Virus record (IMG/VR): IMGVR_UViG_3300005537_000002
Coordinates: 113,638-177,637 of that record
Length of the DNA: 64,000 bases
Source of the DNA: a virus
Reading direction: 5' to 3' (one strand)
Below the pieces are notes generated by a model that saw nothing but the letters and a program-made list of their open reading frames with translations, had not been told where the DNA came from and did no database searches. The position numbers and the translations under genes were made by a program. Of the stretch, positions 661-64,000 are shown piece after piece. Positions within the stretch are counted from its first letter, which is position 1, and every line of letters begins with the position of its first letter.

Positions 661-693
661 ACAGTGTAGAGTACGTAAAGTACTCTACACTGT
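661..693 (+). terminator. Perfect 14-bp hairpin after the first gene
   Basis: Arms ACAGTGTAGAGTAC (661-674) and its complement (680-693) flank a 5-nt loop. No U-tract follows, so it may act as an RNA processing or stability hairpin rather than an intrinsic terminator. A CTGTGCTA octamer begins at 690 in its 3' arm. Confidence 0.6.
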
Positions 694-713
694 GCTATGA
701 AGGGGGTATAAAC

Positions 714-935
714 ATGCCTTTATGGAAAGTCTCTGATTTCAAGTTGTATCGTGGGACATTTACAGACTCTGAAGGGTTTCACGCGGTTGTGTTCCATGCG
801 CTTGACGAGCTCAACGAGGTATATGTTCTTGGGGATGAGTACACTGACGCCAAGGATATAGAGGTCGAGTTGCATAAACAGCCTTCACTCTACGCCGACC
901 TGGAAATCGGTATCATTATTAAGGAGAGGGAGTAA
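714..935 (+). CDS. Hypothetical small acidic protein
   Basis: 73 residues, no recognised family. It has a GAAGGGGGT ribosome binding site ahead of ATG 714 and its stop lies 2 nt from the next start, so the two are translated from one message. The alternation of short hydrophobic and acidic stretches suggests a small beta-rich fold. Function unknown. Confidence 0.75.
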   Translation: MPLWKVSDFKLYRGTFTDSEGFHAVVFHALDELNEVYVLGDEYTDAKDIEVELHKQPSLYADLEIGIIIKERE

Positions 936-937
936 TT

Positions 938-1231
938 ATGCCGAATACAGCACTAGGCAATGAGTATTGGGATAAAGCTATCCCCTTTCCAGATGCAAGT
1001 CCGGAAGTGGACGTGTACACCAATATCCGAGGTATTGCGGACATGCACAACGGAGACGTAACCAAAGTTGTAGAGCACCTGAAAGTGCATATACTTGACC
1101 GGTGGCGAAAAGTGGCAAAGATTCCAGGCTTTGACCAGCAGTATTACGACAACTGGAACCGTCGAGTACAGTTGTTAGAGACTGAGATACAACATCTCGA
1201 ACAGCGACAGAAAGGGCACGCGAATGCCTAA
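938..1231 (+). CDS. Hypothetical protein with C-terminal coiled coil
   Basis: 97 residues. The last third (about 68-93) is a charged helix with heptad-like Leu/Ile spacing and probably forms a coiled coil. The ribosome binding site AAGGAGAGGGAG lies inside the end of the previous gene. It overlaps the next gene by 8 nt. No family recognised. Confidence 0.75.
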   Translation: MPNTALGNEYWDKAIPFPDASPEVDVYTNIRGIADMHNGDVTKVVEHLKVHILDRWRKVAKIPGFDQQYYDNWNRRVQLLETEIQHLEQRQKGHANA

Positions 1232-4205: not shown

Positions 4206-4229
4206 TCACTGTGCTAGAGGAGGTCAACT

Positions 4230-5681: not shown

Positions 5682-5994
5682 AGAAGACCCTAGAACAGAT
5701 CCTTATGAATCATATTATGGAGAAGAACCGTTTGACAAGACTCCCTATACTCGATCAGAGGAGTTTCAGTCGGCTCTGGATAGCTCTGACTGTAAGGGGG
5801 TTGAAGAGGCACACGCTTTAGGTTTAGCACAGTTGTATGAGCTGCAGGACGAAGTTAACGACGCTATTAGGATAGCTATTGCAAAGAAGGTGATGAAAGT
5901 ACTCGGTCGTATGTTGACTGAGGACGAGCAGGAAGATCTTAGAGACTGGTACGTGTCCGAGACTAGATGGCTGATAGGAGTTATAGAAAGCTAG
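5674..5994 (+). CDS. Hypothetical acidic protein, paralogue of the next gene
   Basis: 106 residues. It shares an MGR start, an acidic N-terminal half and a helical C-terminal half with the downstream product: an Ala-rich helix, then a leucine-arginine-methionine-leucine run and an acidic turn. Tandem duplication is likely. Function unknown. Confidence 0.75.
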   Translation: MGREDPRTDPYESYYGEEPFDKTPYTRSEEFQSALDSSDCKGVEEAHALGLAQLYELQDEVNDAIRIAIAKKVMKVLGRMLTEDEQEDLRDWYVSETRWLIGVIES

Positions 5995-6310: not shown

Positions 6311-6838
6311 ATGATGAGGGTGAGTGAGTTGTTACACTCACTACAAGCTCTAAAAGAGGACGAACAGTTCTCTACGCTATATCCACTTATGTTAGGTATT
6401 AGCGGACCGTATAGCTTCCAGACTAGAAGAGGGCGACGACAGTACTACACGACACTGCAGGGCATAGCTGACATAGCAGACGACGACACTGTGCTAGGCC
6501 ACAAAACTGGAGATTTCTTTAGCGAGGCAGATAGAGAGTCCGCCGGCGAGTACGAGATCGGCATCGAGCGGTTGGTGTATATTATAGGTAATATGGTACC
6601 CAACGCTGAAGATGCTATGACCGTGTCTGAAGCCGAGCGTAAGTTAGCACAGCTGTGTAAGTACGGTTTAGGGAACGCTGGCGTGGTATTGATACTGGAC
6701 TGTGACGAGGACGTACCTTGTACGGAGGTTGCGTCAGTGGCAGTAAGTAATGGTCGAGTAGAGCTAGTTTCGACTGGAGCTACCAGTTGGTGTCACATCG
6801 GCTTACAGAACTGGTCGAGGTTTCAGAGGAGGATGTAA
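6311..6838 (+). CDS. Hypothetical protein
   Basis: 175 residues, no recognised family. ATG 6311 and 6314 are alternative starts. A beta-like segment near 120-150 holds two cysteines flanking an acidic patch. It carries a CTGTGCTA octamer (6489) and an inverse copy (6646) within the coding sequence. Confidence 0.76.
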   Translation: MMRVSELLHSLQALKEDEQFSTLYPLMLGISGPYSFQTRRGRRQYYTTLQGIADIADDDTVLGHKTGDFFSEADRESAGEYEIGIERLVYIIGNMVPNAEDAMTVSEAERKLAQLCKYGLGNAGVVLILDCDEDVPCTEVASVAVSNGRVELVSTGATSWCHIGLQNWSRFQRRM

Positions 6839-6873: not shown

Positions 6874-7269
6874 ATGTCGTATAATAACAGTCGAGGACCT
6901 AGGAGAATACCTCTGACATGGTTTGAGTTGAAATCAATCACTCCTCAACCTCTATTACATAAGGGTACAGTATATGCACAACAGTTAACTGGTACACACT
7001 TCGATCCTGAGAGATGCTCAACTCAAGCATGGCGTGAGTGGGCTTATGATGCCATGCTTGTCGGCATTCGAAGAGCCTTTTGCGAGGAGCTGATTGAACG
7101 CTTACAGAAAGTTGCACTAGAGTACACTACTCAAACACACCAGCACATTAGTGCTTTCCAAGTACTGTATAGTGTCGGGAACGACAACTTGTTCCCGGAT
7201 AACTTAGGAGTCGACCTAGATAGGGACATTGGCGACAACATCTGGCGTCGAGTATCCCGACCTGACTAG
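6874..7269 (+). CDS. Hypothetical protein, last gene of the operon
   Basis: 131 residues, no recognised family; mixed helices with aromatic residues. The leader TAAGGAGAAGT precedes ATG 6874. It is followed after 5 nt by a strong terminator hairpin. Confidence 0.77.
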   Translation: MSYNNSRGPRRIPLTWFELKSITPQPLLHKGTVYAQQLTGTHFDPERCSTQAWREWAYDAMLVGIRRAFCEELIERLQKVALEYTTQTHQHISAFQVLYSVGNDNLFPDNLGVDLDRDIGDNIWRRVSRPD

Positions 7270-7274
7270 GTCCA

Positions 7275-7310
7275 CAAGAGGCCGAAAGCTATTATACTTT
7301 CGGCCTCTTG
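7275..7310 (+). terminator. Terminator hairpin fused to the next promoter
   Basis: A perfect 14-bp stem, CAAGAGGCCGAAAG (7275-7288) with its complement (7297-7310), is followed by TTTTC. The end of the 3' arm and its U-tract also provide the -35 box TTGTTT of the next promoter. Confidence 0.8.
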
Positions 7311-7337
7311 TTTTCGATTGGGTGAATATTTTATAAT
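7308..7337 (+). promoter_or_regulatory. Sigma70-like promoter overlapping a terminator
   Basis: TTGTTT (7308-7313), 18-nt spacer, TATAAT (7332-7337), then the conserved AT-rich tail. Drives the operon beginning at 7385. Confidence 0.8.
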
Positions 7338-7384
7338 ATATTATATAAATATAATTCTTTCACACCTAACGAAAGGGGTAGCTA

Positions 7385-7696
7385 ATGAATACACTAGTTG
7401 GTACAGTTACGGACATCTCTCCGCGGAGGCTTAGGCTTTCACTCATTCGCGGCGGTGGACCTATCGGTACGCCATTGGTTGTAGTCGAGATGTCCGTAGA
7501 GGACCCCTACCGATCTTACTTTGGAGTGAGTTCACGGCAGGAGTTCTGGGGTAGCCGATGGGATGAGATTGCAGCCCCACAAGATATTCAGGTCGGTACG
7601 CGAGTGCGTATCGGTCTCAACCCCATCGGTATCCCGATGGACATTCGAAAGGAGGCACTGAGTGAGACAAACACCATCGACCCCCGAGTTCTTTGA
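7385..7696 (+). CDS. Hypothetical beta-rich protein
   Basis: 103 residues with an OB-like alternation of short strands (LVGTVTDISPRRLRLSLI at 4-21, then GTRVRIGLNPIG near 72). The fold assignment is only a suspicion. Ribosome binding site GAAAGGGGTAGCTA. It overlaps the next gene by 35 nt. Confidence 0.76.
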   Translation: MNTLVGTVTDISPRRLRLSLIRGGGPIGTPLVVVEMSVEDPYRSYFGVSSRQEFWGSRWDEIAAPQDIQVGTRVRIGLNPIGIPMDIRKEALSETNTIDPRVL

Positions 7697-8027
7697 TCAG
7701 TGGGTACAGAGCTTTGCTAGGCGTGGAGAGCGGCCACGACACTGGAACGTTCCACCGGAGCATCCGCGTCTAGTAGAGTTATGCACTCTGCTCGGAACAG
7801 AGGTGAGTGATATAGCGGTCATTCACAGTATACAGTCAGAACCACCGGAGGAGTGTCGCACATCAAAAAGTGGGCGGAGGTACTCAATGCAAATTGGGTC
7901 TCGTGTGACATGGAAGATGGGGTATGACTTCCGAACGGCTGCTCCATACGCCTTCGTATGGCTTGATGGAGAGCAGGTCGTCTACAGATGGCCACAACAA
8001 GGCCAGTCATCACACTGGCTAGATTAA
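7662..8027 (+). CDS. Hypothetical protein (GTG start)
   Basis: 121 residues, no recognised family. GTG 7662 is chosen because AAAGGAGGCACTGA lies directly before it. It overlaps the previous gene by 35 nt in another frame. The C-terminal half is beta-like and tryptophan-rich. Confidence 0.7.
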   Translation: MRQTPSTPEFFDQWVQSFARRGERPRHWNVPPEHPRLVELCTLLGTEVSDIAVIHSIQSEPPEECRTSKSGRRYSMQIGSRVTWKMGYDFRTAAPYAFVWLDGEQVVYRWPQQGQSSHWLD

Positions 8028-8062
8028 ATGCTAGTTTATGTTGTTTAGTAGGGAGAACCAAC

Positions 8063-8656
8063 TTGAGAGAGGACGAGCTAAAAGCTCTATACGACGAACT
8101 GGTAGGCGTCGCTAAGTTCTCAGTCATGAGAGCGTTGCTAGACGTAGCGGATAACAACGGAAGTAGATGGAGTGAGGACCTAGCAGACACCTGCTACTCG
8201 ATGACGGAGCAAGAGGCTGAAGGATTAGCACAGGTGTTTGTCGAGGATCCGGTTGGTGACATGCTAGTCTACTTCACGGACGAGCTTAGACACCTGATAA
8301 GGAAATATACCCACAAACCAGTCGAGGTAGTTGAGCGTGAAGGCTTTACTATCGGAGACCACATGGCAGTGGACGGTAGCGTAGAGGTACGCTACTATAC
8401 CATTGCTGGACCAGGGGTGTACACGAAGTCTTCAGCTGGTTTACAGCACTGCCTCGACGTGTTACGAGCACAGCCAGACCTCACTGTGCTACCAAACCGA
8501 AATGGGATTTATCAGGCCTATGTCAGTTGCAGTCTGATACAACGACCCTCACTAGACGCCCTGCGGAGCTATATCGGAGGCATACTTGTTGAGGCGGGCA
8601 TCCAGCCACTACAGACAAGTATCGTCTTGCAGTTTGGAGGAGAGCCGTATGAATAA
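8063..8656 (+). CDS. Hypothetical protein (TTG start)
   Basis: 197 residues, no recognised family. TTG 8063, behind GTAGGGAGAACCAAC, avoids the 40-nt overlap that ATG 7988 would create; the longer form cannot be excluded. The N-terminal half is helical and acidic, the C-terminal half beta-rich. Confidence 0.7.
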   Translation: MREDELKALYDELVGVAKFSVMRALLDVADNNGSRWSEDLADTCYSMTEQEAEGLAQVFVEDPVGDMLVYFTDELRHLIRKYTHKPVEVVEREGFTIGDHMAVDGSVEVRYYTIAGPGVYTKSSAGLQHCLDVLRAQPDLTVLPNRNGIYQAYVSCSLIQRPSLDALRSYIGGILVEAGIQPLQTSIVLQFGGEPYE

Positions 8657-9128
8657 AGACCAGTTTACAGCATACGTTGAGTCGTTACCTGGGAAGTTTG
8701 TACTCGCAGTTGCAGAGCGTATTACAAACGGCGAGTGCGGTCTTTATGAGAGATTCGAGGTGCACAAGACGCTAACGTACGCCATCGTGTGTAATGACTT
8801 ACCTCATTGGGTGGATAAGTATATATTGGACTCCGAGCATCCCATCGAGTTTCCATACACTGGCGTCCACGAAGACTGGTGGTTGGTGCTCTACAACGCC
8901 TTTAACCGAGAGGCTCAAGTAGTTATAGCGGACAAAGCGATAGAGCACATGGGAGATGTGCTTAAGGAGTTCATGGAGGCTGTGCGTAACAATCTAGCGC
9001 CTCACTTCGAAGGGGAGTTCTACGAAGACCCGAACGATTTCTACAACATACTAGAGAAGTCGATGGATAGTAAAGCGTTCCAAGTGTACATGCCGAACAT
9101 CGCGGCTAAGAAGGAATTCACGATATGA
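8649..9128 (+). CDS. Hypothetical acidic protein
   Basis: 159 residues, no recognised family. ATG 8649 follows TTTGGAGGAGAGCCGT; a longer in-frame start at 8586 lies inside the previous gene and lacks such a site. It overlaps both neighbours by a few nucleotides. Confidence 0.75.
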   Translation: MNKDQFTAYVESLPGKFVLAVAERITNGECGLYERFEVHKTLTYAIVCNDLPHWVDKYILDSEHPIEFPYTGVHEDWWLVLYNAFNREAQVVIADKAIEHMGDVLKEFMEAVRNNLAPHFEGEFYEDPNDFYNILEKSMDSKAFQVYMPNIAAKKEFTI

Positions 9129-9931
9129 GTACGTGGTCTGGACTAACGGTACTCGATGAGGAGACGCAATACCTCATCGAGTACGTAGAAGCGTTACTAG
9201 GGGAGCTGCGGTATACTCGTAGTCAGGTTGAGTACGTAACTGAAGCTGGTTTCTCAGTCCGTAGGGTACTATTAGAAGGGGAGCACTACCCTAGAGGCTC
9301 TTGGTGCTATGAGATACGGTACGAGATTCCTGAAGCGGACGTAGTAGCACACCCCAGCCGTATTGGATTCCGTCGAGGTACTAAGTTGTGGAAAGTCCAG
9401 TTGGATCATCACACCGACCAGCAAATGATCAAGCAGCATTATGTCAGTCGGTATGCGAGAACCATTAACCTATGGCTCTCTCACTATAAAGCGTATGAGT
9501 TCGTCGCCATAGACGACGTTAGTAGCTTACCAGAACCCGTATGTAGAGTTGAGTTCGTGGACGACTACCCAAAACTGGAGACGTATTGGGGGGTTACTAA
9601 CGAACGTCTGAAGTCTTACTGGCTGCGGTTCGCATTTAGTCATTGGAAGCTCATTAGAACACAGTTACATGAGTCCGAGGGGTTTACCATTTGCAAGACG
9701 CTAGTCGGTACTGTACCCGGATACGTTATTGGAGTAGATTATCCATCGTCCGCTAAGGATACTAGCATCTCTCTATACTATTATGATCCGAACGCGGACG
9801 TAGACGAGATTCAAGCGGAATCTGCTAAGTTAGCCAGAAGTTTACACGAGGTAGGAGAGGGTATCTACGTCCGTACGAACTTGATGGGCATATCTCCGTA
9901 TGCCCATATTCGAGTCTTCTTAACCGACTGA
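9125..9931 (+). CDS. Hypothetical protein
   Basis: 268 residues, among the longer early products, and of no recognised family. It is rich in Tyr and Trp with mixed secondary structure, and probably has two domains separated near residue 125. ATG 9125 overlaps the stop of the previous gene by 4 nt. Confidence 0.77.
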   Translation: MSTWSGLTVLDEETQYLIEYVEALLGELRYTRSQVEYVTEAGFSVRRVLLEGEHYPRGSWCYEIRYEIPEADVVAHPSRIGFRRGTKLWKVQLDHHTDQQMIKQHYVSRYARTINLWLSHYKAYEFVAIDDVSSLPEPVCRVEFVDDYPKLETYWGVTNERLKSYWLRFAFSHWKLIRTQLHESEGFTICKTLVGTVPGYVIGVDYPSSAKDTSISLYYYDPNADVDEIQAESAKLARSLHEVGEGIYVRTNLMGISPYAHIRVFLTD

Positions 9932-9943
9932 CAAGGAGGATCT

Positions 9944-10321
9944 ATGACAGTAGACCCAGATCGAGAGTGGGACGACGAGTTCGATCCACGCAACCTACAT
10001 CAAGTACGAGAGGTGATCTTAGACGCACTGTCGTTTAGAGTCACTCAGAACTCTGCCCGTAAGTTATACCCTAATGTATACAACTGGCTGTGTACGTATG
10101 CTTCGTCCATGAGTAACGTCCAGCACTCACCCGACGATAGGATTCAGTCCTTTGACTTGTACAACAGAGTCCGTTGGTACGGAGAGGAAGATTTGAGCTC
10201 TCCGACGCGGGCTGTCACTGACAACGGACTACAACCTGTGCTACCTGGATTCGAACCTCCACAGTCAAGCCCAAGACGTTATCATATTACTATCGAAGTA
10301 TTAGACAACTGGAAGGATTAG
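9944..10321 (+). CDS. Hypothetical protein
   Basis: 125 residues, no recognised family. Acidic N-terminus (about 1-14), helical centre and a proline-rich stretch near 100-112. ATG 9944 follows ACAAGGAGGATCT, a strong ribosome binding site. Confidence 0.76.
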   Translation: MTVDPDREWDDEFDPRNLHQVREVILDALSFRVTQNSARKLYPNVYNWLCTYASSMSNVQHSPDDRIQSFDLYNRVRWYGEEDLSSPTRAVTDNGLQPVLPGFEPPQSSPRRYHITIEVLDNWKD

Positions 10322-10325
10322 GTAT

Positions 10326-10556
10326 ATGTATAGAGCAGAGTGGGATAGGAGACTGCGAGAGAGCAAACGTCAGTTGGAGGAGATAGCTGAAGAGTTCTAT
10401 CCGACGTGGCTCACAGAACTCGCCTCACTAACTGGAGAGAGTGTAGAGACGATAGACCGTAAGGTGATGTACATTGCAGAGCACACGACGTTAGGAGACA
10501 AGTACATAGTCATCAATACCTTGCTTATGTACTACCGACTCCCGTGGAAAGGCTAA
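10326..10556 (+). CDS. Small helical protein
   Basis: 76 residues, predicted all-helical with a basic N-terminus. No recognised family. It lies 4 nt after the previous gene and is last in its operon, before the terminator at 10573. Confidence 0.72.
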   Translation: MYRAEWDRRLRESKRQLEEIAEEFYPTWLTELASLTGESVETIDRKVMYIAEHTTLGDKYIVINTLLMYYRLPWKG

Positions 10557-10572
10557 ACGAGCAACTACAAGT

Positions 10573-10599
10573 AGAGGTGCAAACGTAGTTTGCACCTCT
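10573..10599 (+). terminator. Terminator hairpin fused to the next promoter
   Basis: AGAGGTGCAAAC (10573-10584) pairs perfectly with 10588-10599 and is followed by TGTTTTC. The final bases of the stem begin the -35 box of the next promoter. Confidence 0.8.
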
Positions 10600-10628
10600 T
10601 GTTTTCAACCGGTAGAATTATTTATAAT
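10599..10628 (+). promoter_or_regulatory. Sigma70-like promoter
   Basis: TTGTTT (10599-10604), 18-nt spacer, TATAAT (10623-10628) and the conserved AT-rich tail. Heads the operon from 10673. Confidence 0.8.
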
Positions 10629-10672
10629 ATATTATATAAATATAATCTTACACACCACATGGAGGACTAGTC

Positions 10673-10984
10673 ATGGATATGCGTACTTGGACCCGAACGA
10701 TGTCCTTACAGGAGTACATCGCGTATGAGTGGAATGAGGGTGATTTGAAACTGGTTACAGATTTCATGCGTAAGTATACAGAAAAGTCGTGGACTGAAGT
10801 GTGCAGGCTCCGATTCGTCACGTTCTTTGCAGACCCTACGATGGAACTCCCCATACAACCGAATGGGGAGTGCACTTTAATGGCGTACCAGTTCGGTATT
10901 TGGCATGAGGAAAGGCGGCCAACTCTAACCGTAGGCAACGATGTGTACATTTGTTGGGATATAGAAGAAGGTAAGGAGAACTAA
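10673..10984 (+). CDS. Hypothetical protein
   Basis: 103 residues, no recognised family. ATG 10673 follows ATGGAGGACTAGTC. The N-terminal half is helical; the C-terminal half looks beta-like. First gene of an operon that then holds a duplicated gene pair. Confidence 0.76.
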   Translation: MDMRTWTRTMSLQEYIAYEWNEGDLKLVTDFMRKYTEKSWTEVCRLRFVTFFADPTMELPIQPNGECTLMAYQFGIWHEERRPTLTVGNDVYICWDIEEGKEN

Positions 10985-10985
10985 T

Positions 10986-11309
10986 ATGACGCTAGAAGAG
11001 TTACGAGCAAGAGTCGGAGAACGAGACTGGGAAGCGTTCGAGTCAGTGTATGACGTAGCTAGCATGCTTGCAGACGACGAGTTCGAGCTAGATTGGATTG
11101 ACACCTGGGTCCGAGGTATGAACGACATGCACTGTGCTAGAGCTTTGCCTCGAGTACTAGCTATGTGGACTATCGACTATATTCGCCGTTGCGATGCGAA
11201 TATAGAAGTTGTACTCTCGGCAACTTCTTTTGCTAACCAAGCGTCGCCGAATTTCGGTGATGCCTTTATAGCGGCGGTACGACAGGAACTTCACAAAGAG
11301 GAGTCGTAA
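10986..11309 (+). CDS. Early paralogue family C, copy 1
   Basis: 107 residues, helical and acidic, of no known family. It aligns along its length with the gene at 11748: both begin MTLE, share a (E/K)xxWEAF motif near residue 15, an acidic LDxW segment and an Ile-Asp-Tyr-Ile-like core. With the next gene it forms a duplicated pair. Confidence 0.78.
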   Translation: MTLEELRARVGERDWEAFESVYDVASMLADDEFELDWIDTWVRGMNDMHCARALPRVLAMWTIDYIRRCDANIEVVLSATSFANQASPNFGDAFIAAVRQELHKEES

Positions 11310-11313
11310 GCAC

Positions 11314-53375: not shown

Positions 53376-53444
53376 TGTGAAGTCGTACAACCGGTAGTAC
53401 CAGCTTAGGACAGGTTGATGTAGGTTCGAATCCTACTTTCGCAA
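53376..53444 (+). tRNA. tRNA-like, possibly Ser(GGA)
   Basis: TGTGAAG/TTTCGCA acceptor, GTAC/GTAC D stem and GTAGG/CCTAC T stem. CAGCT/GGTTG closes loop TAGGACA by wobble pairs, giving GGA but with A33 and a very short variable region. Confidence 0.5.
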
Positions 53445-53631: not shown

Positions 53632-53762
53632 CAAGTTGGTCCATTGGGTTGTTGCTTGCTTGCGGAAAGGATGTACCGAAAGACTATAGCAGACTCAACG
53701 GAGACTGCGTAGTAGGGTATGCGGTCACGCGGAGAAGTGAGTTCGAATCTCACCAACTTCCA
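53632..53762 (+). tRNA. tRNA-like with long internal insertion
   Basis: CAAGTTG/CAACTTC (one outer mismatch) and a canonical T arm GTGAG, TTCGAAT, CTCAC enclose about 130 nt, far above normal. The interior contains the hairpin ACTATAGCAGACTC/GAGACTGCGTAGT. It could be a degenerate tRNA, a tRNA with an insertion, or a chance 3' half. Confidence 0.35.
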
Positions 53763-53847
53763 TCACTAAGGGATGAGTTGCCTGTCGACCTTAGTGACGA
53801 CTTTCTAGGGGTAGTGTCGTATCCGGTCTCAATAACGACACTACTTC

Positions 53848-53921
53848 GTCCGACTAGCTTAACAAGGAAGAGCGCTTCACTCCAAATGAAGCAGATGAGG
53901 GTTCGAGTCCTTCGTCGGGCG
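53848..53921 (+). tRNA. tRNA-Trp(CCA)
   Basis: GTCCGAC/GTCGGGC acceptor, GCTT/GAGC D stem, CTTCA/TGAAG anticodon stem with loop CTCCAAA, GAGGG/CCTTC T stem, discriminator G as expected for Trp. Confidence 0.87.
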
Positions 53922-53923
53922 TT

Positions 53924-54030
53924 AGTGTAGGGTTAGCTTCTTTCCTTCTAACCTACACTATAAAGGTCATCGATCCTTTCGCGGTGACTTACTAGCTACA
54001 CGAGGACGTAAAGATGTTTTACGTCCTTCA
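53924..54030 (+). ncRNA. Two hairpin spacers before tRNA-Ile
   Basis: TAGTGTAGGGTTAG pairs with CTAACCTACACTA (about 53926-53963), and GGACGTAAA with TTTACGTCC (about 54004-54026). Confidence 0.5.
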
Positions 54031-54036
54031 CTTTTC

Positions 54037-54112
54037 GGTCTTGTAGCTCAACGGTAGAGAGCACCGACCTTATAAGTCGAAGATAGTGGTTCAACTCCAC
54101 TCGAGACTACCA
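54037..54112 (+). tRNA. tRNA-Ile(TAT)
   Basis: GGTCTTG/CGAGACT acceptor with wobble pairs, GCTC/GAGC D stem, CCGAC/GTCGA-type anticodon stem with loop CTTATAA, AGTGG/CCACT T stem, encoded CCA. It would read the rare AUA codon. Confidence 0.83.
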
Positions 54113-54136
54113 AAAACAAACAGAGGAGAGTTAGTA

Positions 54137-54442
54137 GTGCGTATCTATTGTGAAGACGGTAAGTTGTTTCTCGCTATCAACGACAGTACATTCTTCCACA
54201 CTATTGAGGAGTGGAGTCAATTCTTTATTAAGTGTAATTGGTTCGACTTCCATCTATGGCAGGCATACCTAATGTGGGATATCTGCGTTCCAGGTGTAGA
54301 AGCGGAATTTATTCTATTAGGGTTGGGAGTTCGCTTTCGAATGAACTTCGATTGGGAAGGAAGCGAGATTGGAGACCGACTAGAAGAACTTCGTAGGTCT
54401 CGGGAGCCCGATCCGTGTGAGGATGAATATGAGTTGTCTTAG
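54137..54442 (+). CDS. Hypothetical protein between tRNAs (GTG start)
   Basis: 101 residues, no recognised family. GTG 54137 after AGAGGAGAGTTAGTA is chosen; a longer frame from 54086 would run through the tRNA-Ile. Its last codons and stop lie inside the tRNA-Phe gene (10-nt overlap). Confidence 0.72.
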   Translation: MRIYCEDGKLFLAINDSTFFHTIEEWSQFFIKCNWFDFHLWQAYLMWDICVPGVEAEFILLGLGVRFRMNFDWEGSEIGDRLEELRRSREPDPCEDEYELS

Positions 54443-54505
54443 CTCAGTAGGTAGAGCGCCACACTGAAAATGTGGGTGTCACTGGTTCGAGTCCAGTAGG
54501 CAACA
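54433..54505 (+). tRNA. tRNA-Phe(GAA)
   Basis: GTTGTCT/AGGCAAC acceptor, GCTC/GAGC D stem, CCACA/TGTGG anticodon stem with loop CTGAAAA, ACTGG/CCAGT T stem, discriminator A. It overlaps the 3' end of the preceding gene. Confidence 0.88.
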
Positions 54506-54591
54506 TTGACTGTAGGCATTAGCAGCTGTGCTAAACCGGTCTAGCTAACCGGAAGAGACCTACAGAAAAGTACTTAGCAGAAGGAGACCCC

Positions 54592-55101
54592 ATGAAATCG
54601 TTGTCACCGTCACTGTTGATGAAGGCCGCAGTTATTGTCGTCGTAGCATGGTTGTTGCTGATCGGTATACCTAACCTTTTGAAGCCGACTGAAGCAGCAA
54701 CGCAATCGAACTTGCGACCTACTGCACAGTCAGGTAGTAGTCTTTTTCCATCCGACGTGAGACCTAGTCCTCAAAGTGCCTGTATCTCAGCGAAGCATAG
54801 TAACGACCCAACTATGACTTCCGATTTACAATATTGTGGTAGCAACCAGTACGTACTAGTGATTACTCCCGGTGGAGGATTCAATACGGGGAACGTTGTT
54901 AGTTGTACTGAGACAACTGCAGCGAATCCAGGAGGCGTAGCGTTACAAGCGTACCCATTCCTTGGTGGACATGAGTACAACTGCTTCCCTATAGGAGATT
55001 GGCTTTCAGTAAGCGCCATTTGGTACTCTAGTGATGATGCTAATCCTAGTTTGGGTAATCGAATGTCAGTGACATATCAACGACCTGTAGCAAATCCCTA
55101 G
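54592..55101 (+). CDS. Secreted or membrane-anchored protein
   Basis: 169 residues. A Lys-bearing N-terminus and a hydrophobic helix (about 11-30) form a signal anchor or signal peptide. The remaining Ser/Thr/Pro-rich domain has four cysteines and appears extracytoplasmic. No family recognised. Leader AGAAGGAGACCCC. Confidence 0.76.
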   Translation: MKSLSPSLLMKAAVIVVVAWLLLIGIPNLLKPTEAATQSNLRPTAQSGSSLFPSDVRPSPQSACISAKHSNDPTMTSDLQYCGSNQYVLVITPGGGFNTGNVVSCTETTAANPGGVALQAYPFLGGHEYNCFPIGDWLSVSAIWYSSDDANPSLGNRMSVTYQRPVANP

Positions 55102-55122
55102 TAGATCGTTTTCATAACCGGC

Positions 55123-55154
55123 CTTAACCGTAGAGTTCGAACTCTACGGTTAAG
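55123..55154 (+). terminator. 15-bp palindromic hairpin
   Basis: CTTAACCGTAGAGTT (55123-55137) pairs perfectly with 55140-55154 after the secreted-protein gene; followed by a short ATTTCC stretch. Confidence 0.6.
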
Positions 55155-55177
55155 TATTTCCCTCGAAAGGTCTCCCA

Positions 55178-55420
55178 ATGCTAAGACTCTCAGAGACATT
55201 CTCTCCTATCGGCAGTTGTAGTATCTGTAAAGCTCCAGTGTACATGCAGAAGAAGTATCGAGAAGGTGCAAACTACCGACGTAAGACTTGCGAACACACA
55301 CAAGCCCGTATTATGGTACAAGATCTCGAATACCTCAACAGCTTACCTAAACTTACATACCTAACGTTTTGTCTAGGTATGTACATGAAACGGATCTACC
55401 TCGAGTCTTTGGTAGCCTAA
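55178..55420 (+). CDS. Small Cys/His protein
   Basis: 80 residues with CSICK (about 14-18) and CEH (about 38-40), a possible zinc site; basic centre. No recognised family. Leader GAAAGGTCTCCCA. Confidence 0.7.
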   Translation: MLRLSETFSPIGSCSICKAPVYMQKKYREGANYRRKTCEHTQARIMVQDLEYLNSLPKLTYLTFCLGMYMKRIYLESLVA

Positions 55421-55469
55421 ACAGCAAAAACGCCTGAGTTCAGTTAAGAACTCAGGCGTTTTTGCTGTT
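55420..55469. terminator. Bidirectional terminator
   Basis: A 22-bp perfect stem (55420-55441 with 55448-55469) has a CGCCTGAG core and runs of A and T at either end. It lies between convergent genes and fits termination on both strands. Confidence 0.88.
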
Positions 55470-55472
55470 AAT

Positions 55473-56183
55473 TTAGTCTTCCCAAACGTGTTTAGCGTAG
55501 CGAAGACCCTCTTTCATAAAGAGGATAGCTTCCTGCAAGTCGTATTCAGCAGCGTTGTGGTCTTTTTGGAATATGGTGATGTCTGTTCGATATGGCGTCG
55601 GATGCCCAACAGGCATTCCTGGCCATCGGCCGTGTTTATTTGGGTAGTGTACTGGACTTTCGTCCCAAATGGCGTAGCTACCGTTGCTGTATTGCATGAT
55701 GTAAGCTTTCGAGACGTACTCTCCGTACCTCTGTATAGCAAGTACATTGTTGTATGTACTTCTTACGGTCGCTTCGTTCGCAAGTGGAGGAAGTTGTATA
55801 AGACGACGCACACTTAACGGAGTAACTAGTTCAATAGGTACGAGGTCTATGAGTTTCATGCACCTATACATGAGTCTCATAAGAGAGCCTTCTACAGGCG
55901 TGTCTGGAAAGCTACTGCTGAACGAGTATTCGTAGCCCCCTGGAAAGTCACTTTCTGTGTGAGGGTCGTGAGCACTCGGTACAAGAATATGGATAGATCC
56001 ATAGTCATCGAAGAGTGCTGTACGAAACGTACCCGATAGGAAGTTACAGAACGTCTGCTTGTGAGTAGCGTACGTGTCACTCACACTATCTGAGTTGTCT
56101 GACCAATCACGCATAGTTGCTGGGTAACTTGGGTAGTTTGGGTGGACTGGTGCCCGGAAGTCTTCAACAAATTGTTCTGTCAA
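55473..56183 (-). CDS. Hypothetical protein
   Basis: 236 residues, Tyr/Pro-rich N-terminal half, no recognised family. It is transcribed against the structural genes from its own promoter at 56230-56259. Leader AAGGAGAAAACCTTG-type region precedes ATG 56183. Confidence 0.75.
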   Translation of the reverse strand: MTEQFVEDFRAPVHPNYPSYPATMRDWSDNSDSVSDTYATHKQTFCNFLSGTFRTALFDDYGSIHILVPSAHDPHTESDFPGGYEYSFSSSFPDTPVEGSLMRLMYRCMKLIDLVPIELVTPLSVRRLIQLPPLANEATVRSTYNNVLAIQRYGEYVSKAYIMQYSNGSYAIWDESPVHYPNKHGRWPGMPVGHPTPYRTDITIFQKDHNAAEYDLQEAILFMKEGLRYAKHVWED

Positions 56184-56398: not shown

Positions 56399-57757
56399 AT
56401 GGCTCCGACTAAGTCACTGACAGTAGAACTGTATACCCCTCACGAAGGTCAAAAGCTCCTACACAACTGTGCTTCACGTTTCCGGGTTATGAGTTGTGGT
56501 AGACGTTTCGGTAAGACGATGGCGTGTACGAATGAGGTTGCTAAGTTTGCGTTAGAGCACAGTGACACGCTGTCTATGTGGGTTGCTCCCGTGTATAGAC
56601 AGACTCAAATCGCCTTTCGCTTGATGTCGAAGGCGCTCAAGCAAGTATTAGCTGCAGACCCGAACAAGACTGAGTTGAGACTGGAGCTTATTAACGGTAG
56701 CACAGTTGAGTTTAGGTCTACCGAGCGGTTTGACCATTTACGCGGTGAGGGTATACACTTTCTGGTGATTGACGAAGCTGCTAGAGTAGCACAGGAAGCT
56801 TGGGAAGCCGCCTTACGTCCAGCCCTTTCTGACACTAACGGGAGGGCTATCTTTATTAGCACCCCGTTAGGTCGGAATTGGTTCTATCGAATGTTCTTAC
56901 GAGGGCAAGACTCGAGTCAGGATCAGTATAGGTCGTTTACATTCCCAACCTCTGCTAACCCCTATGTACGGAAGGACGACATTGAAGAGGCTAGACTTGC
57001 GCTTCCACAGGATGTATTCCGGCAAGAGTACTTAGCGGAGTTCCTAGAAGAGTCTGCGGGTGTCTTCCGTAACGTCGATGACTGTGTGCAAGGTGAGTTG
57101 GAGGAACCCAAGTTCGGTCACTCGTATATACTCGGTTGGGATCCAGCGAAGTATGCAGACTTCTCTGTTATGACAGTAGTCGACGTCGAGGAGCAGAAGG
57201 TCGTAGCGTTTGATCGTTCGAATGGTGTGGAATACAGAGCACAGCTAGACCGACTGGTTGATCTAGCGTATCGATATAACGGTGCGTTCGTCGTAATGGA
57301 CTGTACCGGAGTAGGTGATCCTCTACTAGAACAGGTTCGAGAACGTAATCTGCAGGTTGAGGGCTTTCTGTTTACGTCGACTAGTAAGTCACAGTTGGTG
57401 GAGAACCTGATTGTGAAGCTCGAGAAGGCGCAAATAACGTTCCCGGACATTCCTATACTCATTAACGAACTAAAGTCGTTTGAACACCGCTATACGCCCT
57501 CTCGATATTTGCAATACAGTGCTCCTGAAGGTATGACAGACGACTGTGTGATGTCACTGGCATTAGCCGCTTGGAGATTAGTGACGAGCGTGCAGACCAT
57601 ACCTCTCGCCGTGTCGTATAGTGTGCCTGTACCAGTTGTAGTGAGAAGTATTCCGAGTGTGGTAGAGACTGACGACGAGGAAGTAAACCGGAGACAGTTG
57701 CAGGCGAGTAGATTTCTGAGAGAAGTGTTTACGAATGTACAGCGTCAGTTGATGTAG
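56399..57757 (+). CDS. terL: Terminase large subunit
   Basis: 452 residues. ATPase: Walker A SCGRRFGKT (32-40), Walker B FLVIDEAAR (121-129) and the coupling motif IFISTP (151-156). Nuclease: GWDPAKYAD with Asp248, Asp301 in VVMDCTG, and MTDD near 379-382. It powers DNA packaging and cuts concatemers. ATG 56399 is preferred to TTG 56396. It lies 5 kb from terS, which is unusual. Confidence 0.95.
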   Translation: MAPTKSLTVELYTPHEGQKLLHNCASRFRVMSCGRRFGKTMACTNEVAKFALEHSDTLSMWVAPVYRQTQIAFRLMSKALKQVLAADPNKTELRLELINGSTVEFRSTERFDHLRGEGIHFLVIDEAARVAQEAWEAALRPALSDTNGRAIFISTPLGRNWFYRMFLRGQDSSQDQYRSFTFPTSANPYVRKDDIEEARLALPQDVFRQEYLAEFLEESAGVFRNVDDCVQGELEEPKFGHSYILGWDPAKYADFSVMTVVDVEEQKVVAFDRSNGVEYRAQLDRLVDLAYRYNGAFVVMDCTGVGDPLLEQVRERNLQVEGFLFTSTSKSQLVENLIVKLEKAQITFPDIPILINELKSFEHRYTPSRYLQYSAPEGMTDDCVMSLALAAWRLVTSVQTIPLAVSYSVPVPVVVRSIPSVVETDDEEVNRRQLQASRFLREVFTNVQRQLM

Positions 57758-59084: not shown

Positions 59085-60797
59085 ATGACGAAGAAACGTC
59101 GCAAACAGCTTACTCCCGTTCCTAGAGGGTCCGAGAAAGCTTATAGACAGCTAGTTCAACTAGTAGAGGCTCCCGAACTCGATGTGCAACGAGTGCAGCA
59201 ACTGTTAGTATCGAACCCGGTGCTGCTAAAGGTACTGGACGGTGTAAGGAATCGAGAGTTAGCAAGACAGGAAGCGTTGACTAGACCAGATATAGCGTTA
59301 GCATCCCCGACTCAGGACTTTCCGAGAGGTGGTGAGTCAGGATTTCCAGCTGCTTGGACTGGTGCTAGGAACTATCCTATCGGAGTTAGTAACGCTAGGG
59401 TACTACGTCAGTTAGCAGATACCGACCCATGGGTTAGAGCAGCTATTACCGTACGTAGACAGCAGATTGGTCGAGCGGATATAGCCGTAGTACCACTGAA
59501 CGAGCGTAAACCCTATAGTCGTACTGTTATGAAGAAGGTACAGCACCTCTTAGATCAGCCGAATGAGTATAGGGACAGTTACCGGTCACTCATTGAGCCT
59601 GTGCTAGAAGACGTGCTCGTGTTGGACCGTGGTGTTATTACCAAGAACATGACGATTATGCGCCAGCCAGTCGGTTTGTACTACGAGGACGGAGCTACGA
59701 TTAAGATCTACCCACAATGGTCAGGAGACCCGAACGAACCTAGATATTTGTATGAAGACGACGTTGGTAGAGTGAAGAAACCCCTCCGTAATGACGAGTG
59801 CATCGTCATAATGGCCAACCCCGCGTCGTACCGATACGGATTGTCGCCGGTGCAAGTGTTGTATGAGACCATTCAAGCGGACTTGAAAGCGTCTACAGCG
59901 GCTATGCACATGGTAGATATGAAACCACCACCTCACGCTGTGCAAGTACCCGGTGCTACGGAAGCACAGATCACTCGCTTGCGGATGATGTACGACACTG
60001 AGATTGCTGGCCGTAAGGAAGTGTTCTGGTTCGGTGGTAATAACCCTGCGAATCACTTTCCGCTGATATTCTCCGCTAAAGACAATCAGTGGCTCGAGTG
60101 GCAGGTGTATATTGTCCGTAAAATGTCCGCAGTCTTTCAACTCTCACCTCAGCAGTTAGGAGTGACATTCGATATTAACAAGGCAAACGCTGAGGTTCAG
60201 CAGGAGATTTTTGAGGATACCGGTTTAATTCCCCTATTATTACTGCTCGAAGAGTTCCTCAATCGAGAGTTACTAGCAGACTATGCACAGCAACTGCCGA
60301 ACGACCGTTCTAATTTAGCAGCTCTTAACCTTCGTATCGTGTATCCAGAAGTAAGTGAAGCCGCTCGACAGTTACACGCTGAACGTGCTGTAAACCTAGC
60401 TGCGAAGGGTATGGCGGGTCTGCCTTCTATGACCCTGAATCAGGTACTGGCGATGCGTGGTGAGGAACCCGTAGCTGGAGGAGACGCATTCTACGTCAAT
60501 ACGACTGCTGGACCACTAAAGTGGCTGTCATACGGAACGGGTTATCTAGGTGGAGACTATGGTCCACGTTCAGGCTCTGGTGTTATCGGTGCTCAAGATC
60601 CTGCTAGTGGAACTAGTGAGGACGCTGACTCACCTTCTACTACACCTGCCGACGATGATCCGACTTCTTCTGGACCCCCACCAGTGTTAGGCGAGTTAGG
60701 TCAACCGGTTGAGTCGGTACAAGTCGGCAGTAAGTCATTTGCTTATACACGTAGTCGGCCGCCAGGTAAGCGCTGGACTAGTAGATATACAGATTAA
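59085..60797 (+). CDS. Portal protein
   Basis: 570 residues, HK97-like phage portal. Typical features are the N-terminal DTDPWVRAAITVRRQQIG segment (about 108-126), LEPVLEDVLVLDRG, an ANPASYRYGLSP motif (about 243-255), and RKMSAVFQLSPQQLGV (about 343-358). The portal forms the dodecameric entry vertex through which terminase pumps DNA. ATG 59085 behind AAGAGGGTGT is preferred to the TTG at 59067, which overlaps the divergent promoter. The C-terminal 75 residues are Ser/Pro/Gly-rich. Confidence 0.92.
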   Translation: MTKKRRKQLTPVPRGSEKAYRQLVQLVEAPELDVQRVQQLLVSNPVLLKVLDGVRNRELARQEALTRPDIALASPTQDFPRGGESGFPAAWTGARNYPIGVSNARVLRQLADTDPWVRAAITVRRQQIGRADIAVVPLNERKPYSRTVMKKVQHLLDQPNEYRDSYRSLIEPVLEDVLVLDRGVITKNMTIMRQPVGLYYEDGATIKIYPQWSGDPNEPRYLYEDDVGRVKKPLRNDECIVIMANPASYRYGLSPVQVLYETIQADLKASTAAMHMVDMKPPPHAVQVPGATEAQITRLRMMYDTEIAGRKEVFWFGGNNPANHFPLIFSAKDNQWLEWQVYIVRKMSAVFQLSPQQLGVTFDINKANAEVQQEIFEDTGLIPLLLLLEEFLNRELLADYAQQLPNDRSNLAALNLRIVYPEVSEAARQLHAERAVNLAAKGMAGLPSMTLNQVLAMRGEEPVAGGDAFYVNTTAGPLKWLSYGTGYLGGDYGPRSGSGVIGAQDPASGTSEDADSPSTTPADDDPTSSGPPPVLGELGQPVESVQVGSKSFAYTRSRPPGKRWTSRYTD

Positions 60798-60812
60798 AAG
60801 GAGTAATACAAT

Positions 60813-61082
60813 ATGTATCACAACGGAGACCATTCGGTTCTCGAGCTGGGTAATGACATTTACGAAGTGAAAGCTGTCGAGTTACAGACAGCAGAAGATG
60901 GGACAGTTACAGCACAGATTACAGCGACTCTAGTCCCGGGTAAGGACTATTCGCAAATGACACGTGTGCATAATACTGATGGCGTCACCCATCAGTATCA
61001 TCATGTGACTGCGACGACTGCAGTTAAACCGACTGTGCCAAAGCCAACTATCGTTCAGAAGCCCGCGAGTAGCACTAAGTAG
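60813..61082 (+). CDS. Small hypothetical protein
   Basis: 89 residues, beta-rich N-terminal two thirds, Pro/Lys/Thr tail. It sits between portal and protease, where small accessory head genes are common. No recognised family. Leader AAAGGAGTAATACAAT. Confidence 0.75.
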   Translation: MYHNGDHSVLELGNDIYEVKAVELQTAEDGTVTAQITATLVPGKDYSQMTRVHNTDGVTHQYHHVTATTAVKPTVPKPTIVQKPASSTK

Positions 61083-61090
61083 AGGAATGT

Positions 61091-64000
61091 ATGACAACGA
61101 TCGAGCCTGCACAAATGGACAGCAAGGTCGGTGGTCTGTCTCCAGACTTCGTCATCTATACTGCTTCGATGGAACCCCTGCTTACGCAGGATGCTGTCCA
61201 TGGAGGTATAGAGCCTATAGTACATATGGTAGGCTCGAGTACAGTACGAGACCTAGAAGAGGACTCTATGCAGATGTCAGCACTAGCTGACATGATGCAA
61301 GTGCGTCCTAAGTTGTCGATTTGGCTGAATCACGACTACGCTCTTCCGGATTCGCTGTTTGGTAGTTTAGTAGATAGACCGGAGCTGTTTACAGCGAATG
61401 GTATAGCTGACCTACATCTCAATGTTGGTGTAGAGATGGACAACCCAAACGCTGCTAGGACCTACAAGTACATTCGAAACGGGAGACAGTTCGGTTGTAG
61501 CGTAGGTTGTATGGTAAAGGATTGGGAAGCTGCCGACGACGACGATTACGGCGGACCGATTAATATCTTACACGTGGAGGTCGTCGAGTTCTCAGTCGTC
61601 GGTATCCCTGCTAACCAGCGGTGTTGGGTTGAGAACGCGATTAAGGGTATATTCTCTCGCTCATTAAGAGAAGGCGTACTTAGTGACGCTGAGAAACTAG
61701 CTCCTGTTATGCGGGGCTTGTTTCCTAGAGACTACGAGAGTGCAATTGGACGTACCTTTACAGACGGTGACTTAAGGAAGCACTTTAACAGTATTAAAGC
61801 TCGCCCTTCTAATAAGCGCGTGTTATGGTCTCCAACTAAAAAGATGTTTGTACTGTCTCACAACGGTAAATTGGAGGAGATTACTCCCGCTCAAGTACCT
61901 ACTGTGCTTGCGACTGAGACTAAGAAGTACTCACCAGATGTTAAAGTGGTGTTGGACGGTGAGTCAATCGCTGCTATGGTGTCTAAGGAGCTTGCAGGTG
62001 ATGTAATTATTACACCGACGACTAGGTTCGAGGTTACGGAAAAGGGTAGAGCGTTCTTTAAGACACTAGAACTAGTACAGTCTGAAGAGGAAGTCGATGC
62101 CCTTATCGAGTCCGAACTGTTTCCGGATGAGGCTAAGGCTGCTAGTGGCAAGACGAGTTGGCCTCTAGCAGATAGAGGGGCAGGTTGGGATGGAAGTGGC
62201 GCTAGACATAGACTAGTCGAGTGGGCCGGTGGTAAAGACAGCATGTCGTCAGCTAAGATGAAACAGTGCTTCTTCTGGTACGATGCTTCTACTCCCGATA
62301 ACATTGGTTCGTATAAGCTACCTTTCTGTGACGTGGTAGGTGGCAGCGTGAAGGCGATACCGAAGGGTATCTTTGCTGCAGCCGCCGCAGTACAGGGAGC
62401 ACGTGGTGGTGTGAGTATACCTAGTGGGGATGTAGGTGCTGTCAGATCTAGGATTGCTGCCTACTACCACCGAATGTCTTCAGCATTCAATGACCCTGAT
62501 ATTACACCACCATGGGAAGGTGGTAAGGAGGTACAACCCGACGTGCTACAGACAACGCACATCGATCCTGACCTTATCAAGACTGATAACCGCGGTATGT
62601 CGATTGACTCAGATGGCTCGCACGAACCATTTAAGGGTTCTCATACGCACGCTCATCCGTCTTTCGGTCAGAAGAGTATAGATTCAGACCTACACGCTCA
62701 CGAGCATGAGCACGACAACGACTTCAATCACGCTCATCCGCACGTAGACTTTCCTACCAATCCGGAGGATGGTAAAGCCCCCTCGCCGCAGATAGCTCCG
62801 ACTGGAGGAGCTCAAACAGGACCTGCCGGTCCAGCTACGCCAGCAGTTACGCCAGGTTACTCTCCTACACCAGCAAAGACTCCTTCTGACAGTGGACAGA
62901 CTGGACCTACTTATAATCCTCCGGGTCCAACAGACGTTGGTGCCGATCCAGACGGTGCTTCAGCTATGCAAAGTCAACCAGTAAGTGCAAGTACGCAGGC
63001 AGAAGTGACCAAGGGTAAGGTGGAGGTTTCGAGAGACGGTACTCACGCGGTAATGAGTGGGACTCATACTCATATACATAAGGCGTTTGGGTCTCAAGGT
63101 GAAGATGAGACGCATACACACACTCACTCACACGATGACGATGCCGGACATAAGCACAGCCATAGCGGAGATAAGAGTCTACAAGTAGCGCACGATGCTA
63201 TGCTTGCAACCTATAACCAACTCGGTGCCGCTCTTGGCTTTAGTGCCGTTGATGCTACTAAAGCTATTGCTACGAAGGATATGGATTGGTCAGCACTTGC
63301 GACTGCTATTACCACGATCGACGCCCACATCGATGCAGCTGATGGTGCTATAGACTCGTTAATGGCCGTACTAGGTATTCCAGACTATGATAACGGTGAC
63401 GATGATGACGGAGATAGCGGGGAACTAATTCGATCTGTTGCTAGACGTCGGTTACAGAGAGAGTTGGCTTCTTCTACAGACGGTGCTATTACTAGGTCGT
63501 TGCCAGAACTGCCGGATGCGTCACATATGGCAATGGCACACGTTATGCACAAGTGCCTGTCGTTTATGTCGGGTGGTAAGACATGTGCAGTTGGCGGTAT
63601 TCCAGGTTCGGACGCGAATCCAATACCAGAGACTCATATGCCTCTAGCTCACGTCATACATCATGCGTTACAGCATATGACTGGTGGCAAAGTGTGCAGT
63701 GTAGGTAGCCCTACTGTATCCAATATGGAGCCTACTCAACCGGATATGGGTTCTGGCGTAAGTGGAGGCACTTACAATAGTACAGAACCCGTTGGTGGTT
63801 ATCCCAACGCTTCGGCGAGTGCTCCAGTGGATACAAAGTCACTAGCAGCTGTGCTAGGCCTTAGTAACGTGAGTCTATCGCCTTCTATCGATAAACTGAC
63901 GAGAGCTTTAGATGGTATCAACGTAAAAGGGTTGCAGAGTAGCGTGCAAGAAGCTCAACAGACTCTAGCGAGTATACAGTTAGAGGTCGCTGAACTTCAG
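61091..64000 (+). CDS. Prohead protease with C-terminal extension, 3'-partial
   Basis: 970 codons to the window edge, without a stop. Residues about 20-180 match HK97-type (U35) prohead proteases: WLNHDY with His81, FGCSVGCMV with Ser137, and VVEFSVVGIPANQR (about 164-177). These enzymes mature the capsid. A second conserved unit (about 355-460, RHRLVEWAGG, FWYDASTPDNIGSYKLP, YYHRM) is known as a partner domain in phage proteases. Two His-rich segments (about 508-553 and 655-693), a Pro/Gly linker and a further helical part follow. It may include a fused scaffold. Confidence 0.9.
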   Translation, partial: MTTIEPAQMDSKVGGLSPDFVIYTASMEPLLTQDAVHGGIEPIVHMVGSSTVRDLEEDSMQMSALADMMQVRPKLSIWLNHDYALPDSLFGSLVDRPELFTANGIADLHLNVGVEMDNPNAARTYKYIRNGRQFGCSVGCMVKDWEAADDDDYGGPINILHVEVVEFSVVGIPANQRCWVENAIKGIFSRSLREGVLSDAEKLAPVMRGLFPRDYESAIGRTFTDGDLRKHFNSIKARPSNKRVLWSPTKKMFVLSHNGKLEEITPAQVPTVLATETKKYSPDVKVVLDGESIAAMVSKELAGDVIITPTTRFEVTEKGRAFFKTLELVQSEEEVDALIESELFPDEAKAASGKTSWPLADRGAGWDGSGARHRLVEWAGGKDSMSSAKMKQCFFWYDASTPDNIGSYKLPFCDVVGGSVKAIPKGIFAAAAAVQGARGGVSIPSGDVGAVRSRIAAYYHRMSSAFNDPDITPPWEGGKEVQPDVLQTTHIDPDLIKTDNRGMSIDSDGSHEPFKGSHTHAHPSFGQKSIDSDLHAHEHEHDNDFNHAHPHVDFPTNPEDGKAPSPQIAPTGGAQTGPAGPATPAVTPGYSPTPAKTPSDSGQTGPTYNPPGPTDVGADPDGASAMQSQPVSASTQAEVTKGKVEVSRDGTHAVMSGTHTHIHKAFGSQGEDETHTHTHSHDDDAGHKHSHSGDKSLQVAHDAMLATYNQLGAALGFSAVDATKAIATKDMDWSALATAITTIDAHIDAADGAIDSLMAVLGIPDYDNGDDDDGDSGELIRSVARRRLQRELASSTDGAITRSLPELPDASHMAMAHVMHKCLSFMSGGKTCAVGGIPGSDANPIPETHMPLAHVIHHALQHMTGGKVCSVGSPTVSNMEPTQPDMGSGVSGGTYNSTEPVGGYPNASASAPVDTKSLAAVLGLSNVSLSPSIDKLTRALDGINVKGLQSSVQEAQQTLASIQLEVAELQ

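Follow-up and report, generated by a model that had tools for sequence, protein, structure and literature searches.

Chi, which phage P1 carries, is a DNA word at which a bacterial repair enzyme gives up degradation and turns to recombination; to our knowledge, such words have been identified in only a few bacteria. The stoperators of L5-type mycobacteriophages are found chiefly in the gaps between genes and are oriented with transcription. In the extract of Bobay et al. (2013, PMC3784561) that deals with lambdoid phages, the median observed/expected (O/E) ratio of Chi is 3.12 in those without recombinases, 2.50 in those with a recombinase and no RecBCD inhibitor, and 0 in those with both; the same extract puts the Chi density of Rec- phages and of their host at about 0.2 per kb and states that phages that require concatemers over-represent Chi. 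HIP1 (GCGATCGC) of cyanobacteria is, according to an extract of the work on it (PMC4390886), a palindromic word associated with the target sites of methyltransferases. Here we describe the non-palindromic octamer CTGTGCTA in a soil bacteriophage, in which this eight-letter word is iterated about 125 times on both strands, genes included. The stretch of DNA that was analysed, the window, is 64,000 nucleotides long and is made up of positions 113638-177637 of the 177,637-base virus record IMGVR_UViG_3300005537_000002. Coordinates are those of the window unless they are said to be of the record.

The octamer CTGTGCTA occurs 21 times in the window and its complement TAGCACAG occurs 20 times, while a second-order Markov model expects 2.96 for both strands (z 22), which is an enrichment of about 14-fold. 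The earlier note, made from the letters of the window, had counted about 20 and 18 copies by eye, which proved right though slightly low, and its ten quoted positions, from 690 to 63849, are exact, every one of them on the + strand. Its figure of about 20-fold holds only when equal base frequencies are assumed (1.95 expected in the window) and has to be lowered to about 14-fold under the second-order model. In the whole record there are 125 copies, 66 on one strand and 59 on the other, versus 11.8 expected under a third-order model, and under this model CTGTGCTA has the highest z among all 8-mers of the record. Its density is thus 0.70 per kb (704 per Mb), with an average spacing of 1.4 kb. 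It had also been proposed that the octamer should be given up if a Markov model showed that it is no more enriched than its sub-words predict. Taken by the letter, there is almost no enrichment at the maximal order, because a sixth-order model predicts 35.2 of the 41 copies in the window and 109.7 of the 125 in the record. This comparison is circular, however, because the octamer itself supplies most of its sub-words: the window has 69 CTGTGCT and 53 TGTGCTA, and in both cases 41 of them are parts of the octamer.

Genes were predicted with a simple home-made caller that gave 197 genes covering 67% of the record, and because of this coverage some of the sites that are called non-coding below may lie in missed genes. 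Predicted genes hold 94 of the 125 copies, as compared with 7.2 ± 2.6 copies (maximum 14) in 200 within-gene shuffles of synonymous codons. The in-gene z of the octamer is about 30 under this shuffling, which rules out codon usage as the cause. Per kb there are 0.79 copies in predicted genes and 0.51 elsewhere, and of the 41 copies in the window 26 are in such genes. Over-representation beyond composition and codon use holds in genes and outside them, as would be looked for in a Chi site. The spelling of those peptides that permit the word leads to the same result. Thirty of the 43 [LIV]AQ peptides are spelled NTA GCA CAG where codon usage roughly predicts 5.6%, and 45 of the 104 [SPTA]VL peptides are spelled NCT GTG CTA where it roughly predicts 1.8%. 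In the third frame 16 of 212 peptides carry the word and in the fourth 10 of 32, both counted for seven letters. Four of the six gene frames are used; in the other two the word would place TAG or TAN in frame. The [SPTA]VL peptides are themselves commoner than in shuffled proteins (104 versus 78.8, standard deviation 8.5) and the [LIV]AQ peptides are slightly above them (43 versus 30.4, standard deviation 6.4). Since [LIV]QA, in which the last two residues are exchanged, is raised just as much (47 versus 30.5), an effect on the protein sequence is not demonstrated.

The two strands were compared next to these counts. Although 190 of the 197 predicted genes are on one strand (+), the octamer is divided 66/59, and a transcription or RNA signal is disfavoured by orientations that are about equal in a genome coded almost wholly one way. 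Along the genome the orientation has no block structure, as the range of the cumulative skew is not unusual (p 0.41) and there are 70 runs versus 63.5 expected; strand or replication polarity was therefore rejected as the cause. The gaps between copies are slightly evener than random, with a coefficient of variation (CV) of 0.84 (p about 0.02-0.03). Every 10-kb stretch that was tried has at least three copies, but neither this lack of empty stretches (p 0.09) nor the best density peak, 26 copies in the 20 kb that start at 34.6 kb (p 0.09), is significant. Since many of the places that the protein sequence leaves open to the word do carry it, regardless of transcription and strand, the octamer is a DNA signal independent of codon usage.

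The unit is best written as CTGTGCT followed by A (125 in the whole record), T (40), G (18) or C (18), the last three versus 7-9 expected each. In the record, single-base neighbours are clearly in excess at the last and first positions only, the first-position neighbour with G being found 18 times versus 9.3 expected. At positions 2-7 most neighbours are at or below expectation, and there is a moderate excess of CTGTACTA (25 versus 17; inside genes 19 versus 9.0 expected) and of CTGTGCCA (11 versus 6.1). Inside genes the ends are looser, with 51 neighbours versus 13.7 at position 8 and 27 versus 11.3 at position 1, and the core of positions 2-7 is strict save at position 5 (28 versus 18.7) and slightly at position 7 (15 versus 11.6). 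This is an asymmetric word with a strict core and mild tolerance at position 5, such as one would look for in a Chi site, and the strict core with loose positions 1 and 8 looks like the pattern of a site that is read by a protein. The following base had been said to be usually A or G, and it is so at 86 of the 125 copies; in genes, after correction for codons, A is in excess and G is in deficit. In genes, once codon choice is corrected for, the favoured flanking bases are A at -6, C at -3, C at -2 (where T is disfavoured) and A directly 3' of the octamer, and outside genes T is found at -1 in none of the 31 sites. Spread of the repeats by copying is ruled out because the flanks have no long common sequence. 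Taken together, the counts, the synonymous shuffles, the peptide spelling, the flanks and the strand tests bear out the claim of the earlier note that this is a frame-independent, bidirectional DNA signal.

As a positive control the in-gene ranking was carried out on the first 50 of the 94.8 kb of P1, and GCTGGTGG, the E. coli Chi, ranked first among in-gene 8-mers, with 23 copies versus 1.7-2.4 in two runs. In all there are 27 copies, that is 0.54 per kb, which are divided 15/12 by strand, are in five frames, and have one-mismatch neighbours that are little enriched. The octamer CTGTGCTA resembles P1 Chi in being asymmetric, in being the top in-gene 8-mer, in being about 10-fold enriched, in having one-mismatch neighbours with little enrichment, and in its presence on both strands and in several frames. 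Because the same test ranks Chi first in P1, the best reading of CTGTGCT(A>T) is that of a Chi-like signal for resection and recombination, to which we give a probability of roughly 0.45. Among the three readings that had been offered, Chi-like sites thus fit best; stoperator-like repressor sites fit badly and a modification target is unsupported. We consider recognition by a resection or recombination enzyme most likely and file the octamer as a word that may work like Chi, not as a proven Chi. The enzyme would enter from a broken DNA end and read the asymmetric octamer while moving, and on meeting it would cease to degrade the phage genome by resection and would protect and recombine it instead. 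The genome map is circular, because contig G001 spans both record ends in one piece (100% and 99.996% identity) and the ends of the record share a 110-base direct repeat, and the genes of the phage include those of a T4-type terminase large subunit and of a portal protein. From the T4-type terminase and the circular map, headful packaging from concatemers is probable. DNA ends would then form at any point and give access from both directions, and for this reason many copies would be expected in both orientations, genome-wide, in genes or not. The terminase, the circular map and the phage's own Sak4-type recombinase weigh in favour of a Chi-like signal in the light of PMC3784561; no RecBCD inhibitor is named among the family-scan matches, in which no search aimed at these small, fast-evolving proteins was made.

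The phage also has machinery of its own. The record from 42 to 61 kb, outside the window, encodes a D5-type primase-helicase, an SNF2-type helicase, a second helicase (Helicase_C_2) that is DinG-like by our own reading, and a full-length PolA; the same region also encodes two PD-(D/E)XK exonucleases (phrog_1218), a Sak4-like protein and a DUF669 protein. The PHROGs of single-stranded-DNA-binding proteins matched one protein each among 51 scanned. In a phage that bears a recombinase such as the Sak4-like protein, either the octamer is the Chi of the host or the replication/recombination block of the phage reads it. It is somewhat more likely that the reader would be a RecBCD/AddAB-type enzyme of the host than the exonuclease-Sak4 system of the phage. 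Nevertheless, with exonucleases and a Sak4 encoded in its own genome, the phage may read the octamer with machinery of its own, and about a third of the weight given to a Chi-like signal goes to a reader owned by the phage. In this version, which is unlikely when taken by itself, the octamer would be a self-marker for the resection system of the phage, with the two phrog_1218 exonucleases, the Sak4-like recombinase, DUF669 and the helicases (46-61 kb of the record) as the reader. DNA that has the word every 1.4 kb or so would be spared, and host DNA, which has it every 20 kb or more in the sampled genomes, would be consumed. In either case the octamer stands at 43-70% of the main permissive peptide places, so that the word is revealed without knowing the host, and this gives a direct route to testing whether phages advertise the Chi of their host or a Chi-like code of their own. 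The ranking of in-gene octamers against synonymous shuffles, which recovered Chi in P1 and not in T5, is applicable to all large phage genomes for unknown signals.

Several points weigh against a Chi-like signal. Known Chi sequences are G-rich and the octamer is not; it is a different word from that of P1, where Chi is clustered (CV 1.9) whereas the octamer is evenly spread. In T5, the other control (50 of 121.75 kb), Chi was not enriched, with 2 copies versus 1.5 expected in genes, and T5-like phages are named together with P1-like phages as the strongest in Chi among other genera in the extract of PMC3784561. The O/E of the octamer, about 10-15, is far above the lambdoid medians of 2.3-3.1 given in that extract, that of P1 being about 11. 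The phage's own Sak4 and exonucleases make reliance on a host enzyme less necessary. Finally, unlike P1 Chi, the octamer has no host with a matching enrichment among 891 bacterial genomes, where the maximum is 51.5 per Mb versus 704 per Mb in the phage, and the densest genome has 170 octamers in 3.3 Mb (size rounded) beside 103 of the reversed control word. These genomes are 46 that bear PolA and 300, 397 and 148 further ones, which came from scans of 301 genomes of the phylum of a Caldilineae genome, 398 of that of a Pseudomonas genome and 149 of that of a Thermoanaerobacterales genome. Actinobacteriota and Acidobacteriota are outside this sample, and since the phylum of the host may be so too, there is still room for a host Chi. 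The hints as to the host disagree. The DUF7873 protein is closest to actinobacterial phages, those of Gordonia, Arthrobacter and Rhodococcus; PolA is closest, among the matches listed, to genomes that are Chloroflexota by title, at an identity of at most 42%, and 7 of the first 9 matches listed are titled Chloroflexi, Caldilineae, Thermoflexales or Anaerolineaceae.

The word was also sought in other phages. G001 is the same phage and G009, which is from the same sample and has an identical PolA, was taken to be the same, and both were excluded. None of 84 other virus records that were counted has a comparable density throughout; for most of these the counts were set beside the reversed control word and not beside a computed expectation. 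In the in-gene ranking of 16 other records (G002, G003, G005, G010-G013, G015, G018, G019, G381, G383-G385, G389 and G391) the top 8-mer has a z of at most 10.3. A scan for a two-copy pattern gave at least 120 stretches, and of the 25 whole records counted from it, those with the most copies or the longest, none comes near 0.70 per kb throughout; the densest of them contain tandem or clustered repeats. Megablast of 49 of the 64 kb of the window against 50,697 phage genomes gave no matching record. The nearest relative is G002/G003, with a terminase identity of 66%. The joining of these two contigs is rough, with an identity of only 65% per position in their overlap, so that they could belong to two related phages; the figures are therefore given for G002 alone, in which there is a weak excess of the octamer (5 in 20 kb versus 0.70 expected). 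A weak excess is also found in the more distant relative G383 (11 in 96 kb versus 3.83; in genes 6 versus 3.6), and G391 has 5 copies versus 2.03 expected. Four sites of the phage fall in DNA that can be aligned to the sister phage G002/G003, at about 67-71% identity, and two of the four are kept; these are the only two places with the octamer in the alignable stretches of the sister. Literature searches on iterated octamers in phages gave work on Chi in phages and on HIP1 in cyanobacteria and, among the matches listed, none on CTGTGCTA, and a literal text search for the octamer gave, among the matches listed, papers on subjects that are unrelated by title.

Other explanations have to be weighed against the Chi-like signal. 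A site of the replication machinery, for example a priming site of the D5-type primase-helicase required on each strand at intervals of one or two kilobases, would account for the spacing of 1.4 kb and for copies in coding and non-coding DNA alike, and the primase-helicase is encoded. The octamer is like the T7 primase sites in being short, asymmetric and on both strands. Primase sites other than that of T7 are, however, about 3 nucleotides long. That of T7 is given, in the extract describing it, as the 5-nucleotide 5'-(G/T)2GTC-3', which is far shorter than the strict 7-8 nucleotides found here, and the octamer has none of the orientation switches that one or two fixed origins would produce. 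Thus, if the origins are fixed, orientation does not follow replication as it should for a lagging-strand primase, and we regard a replication site as unlikely. It is likewise doubtful that the word is no selected signal and was written by a mutational drive, for example by a bias in mismatch repair or by repair events near a modified site. The near-saturation of permissive peptides would be expected from it, an extract of PMC4390886 argues that the over-representation of HIP in cyanobacteria may be a by-product of repair, and the genes of the phage include FolE- and QueC-type ones of a 7-deazaguanine pathway and a fusion of uracil-DNA glycosylase to a polymerase. On the other hand, the word is asymmetric and non-palindromic, its one-step neighbours ending in A are not generally depleted in genes (108 versus 96.7), although some single ones are, the graded tolerance at positions 1 and 8 resembles recognition, and no DNA methyltransferase family was matched among about 149 distinct proteins scanned with Pfam. 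The likeness to HIP1 is that of one highly iterated octamer, for which a model in that same extract allows about one per kilobase; the difference is that CTGTGCTA is not a palindrome and has no methyltransferase beside it among the scanned proteins. The latter result also disfavours a methylation target, as does the fact that such a site needs no excess; as to other modifications, the FolE and amidotransferase-QueC genes suggest 7-deazaguanine.

A binding site for a DNA-architecture, partition or packaging protein of the phage would agree with a distribution that is broad and independent of genes. Architecture and partition proteins usually tolerate degenerate sites, however, and the core of the octamer tolerates little; a packaging site is needed only once, and no candidate protein was found, so that we consider this improbable. 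We think the same of a host-wide signature word, uptake-like or HIP-like, that the phage would have copied: the host may lie outside the phyla sampled, but the maximum among the 891 genomes is far below the density in the phage. Least probable, and by our estimate very much so, are stoperator-like sites that would silence the phage genome in the lysogen. As in the L5-type phages the site is short, asymmetric and repeated in many copies through the genome, two close inverted pairs could act as operators, and the 51 scanned proteins include one PHROG match to a transcriptional regulator and one match to sigma-70 region 4. Unlike the L5-type stoperators, the octamer is neither mostly intergenic nor oriented with transcription, as three quarters of the copies, the 94 given above, are in predicted genes and the orientations are about equal despite nearly all genes being on one strand, and no integrase is named among the family-scan matches.

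The 41 copies in the window are as follows, where non-coding is by the home-made gene model and sites without a remark are plain matches to the octamer. On the + strand they are at 690-697 (non-coding, directly 3' of an inverted repeat), 2657-2664 (non-coding), 4209-4216 (non-coding, just 5' of the ribosome-binding-site-like GAGGAGG), 6489-6496, 8484-8491, 10236-10243 (non-coding), 11132-11139, 12863-12870, 15702-15709, 18691-18698, 25418-25425, 27974-27981, 34821-34828, 34932-34939 (non-coding), 42069-42076, 48319-48326, 50886-50893 (non-coding), 51344-51351, 54526-54533 (non-coding, about 20 nucleotides downstream of a tRNA gene), 59599-59606 (within the portal gene and kept in the sister phage) and 63849-63856 (non-coding). 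On the - strand they are at 5825-5832, 6645-6652, 8226-8233, 12468-12475, 14037-14044, 14557-14564, 17422-17429 (non-coding), 18705-18712, 20370-20377, 25889-25896, 29443-29450 (non-coding), 31749-31756, 33735-33742 and 33830-33837 (both non-coding), 37143-37150 (non-coding), 37464-37471, 43854-43861, 45276-45283, and 56698-56705 and 56787-56794 (both within the terminase large subunit gene and not kept in the sister phage). The copies at 18691 and 18705 are the left and right arms of one 34-nucleotide inverted repeat at 18685-18718, between two genes, in which the two facing octamers form a perfect 14-base inverted repeat around TATTAT. A second pair, at 47172 and 47182 of the record, is 10 bases apart and the two octamers face away from each other.

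Only one family of longer words has a comparable enrichment, namely TATATTATAA and its overlaps, with 46 occurrences in the record when both strands are counted. Its sites in the window are, for example, at 2750, 20048, 26623, 34992, 48747, 56227 and 59044, and none of the occurrences in the record is inside a predicted gene. It looks like the core of a strong promoter-like element, CCTCTTG(T/A)TTT, a spacer and TATAATATAAA, that is often readable in both directions. The related 106-kb contig G005 carries another repeat, GTGGGCAGGAAA and its neighbours, with 39 occurrences.

The window from 1224 to 54442 is a dense block of orphan small genes, in which 65 predicted proteins of at least 100 amino acids gave no Pfam match and one PHROG match, to a terminase small subunit. 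An SU10-type capsid protein was found as one of the 51 proteins scanned. Elsewhere in the record, 62414-63028 and 64474-66048 encode GTP cyclohydrolase I (FolE) and a QueC protein with a glutamine amidotransferase domain, and these two genes suggest that the phage DNA may contain 7-deazaguanine. The uracil-DNA glycosylase fusion, at 78982-82032 of the record, is a protein of 1016 amino acids with the glycosylase domain at the N-terminus joined to a family A DNA polymerase, and it is additional to the second, full-length PolA at 52859-55648 of the record. ARAGORN found ten tRNA genes in the window, and in the sister phage G002 there are 27 tRNA genes within about 11.5 kb, at 6930-18408 of that contig.

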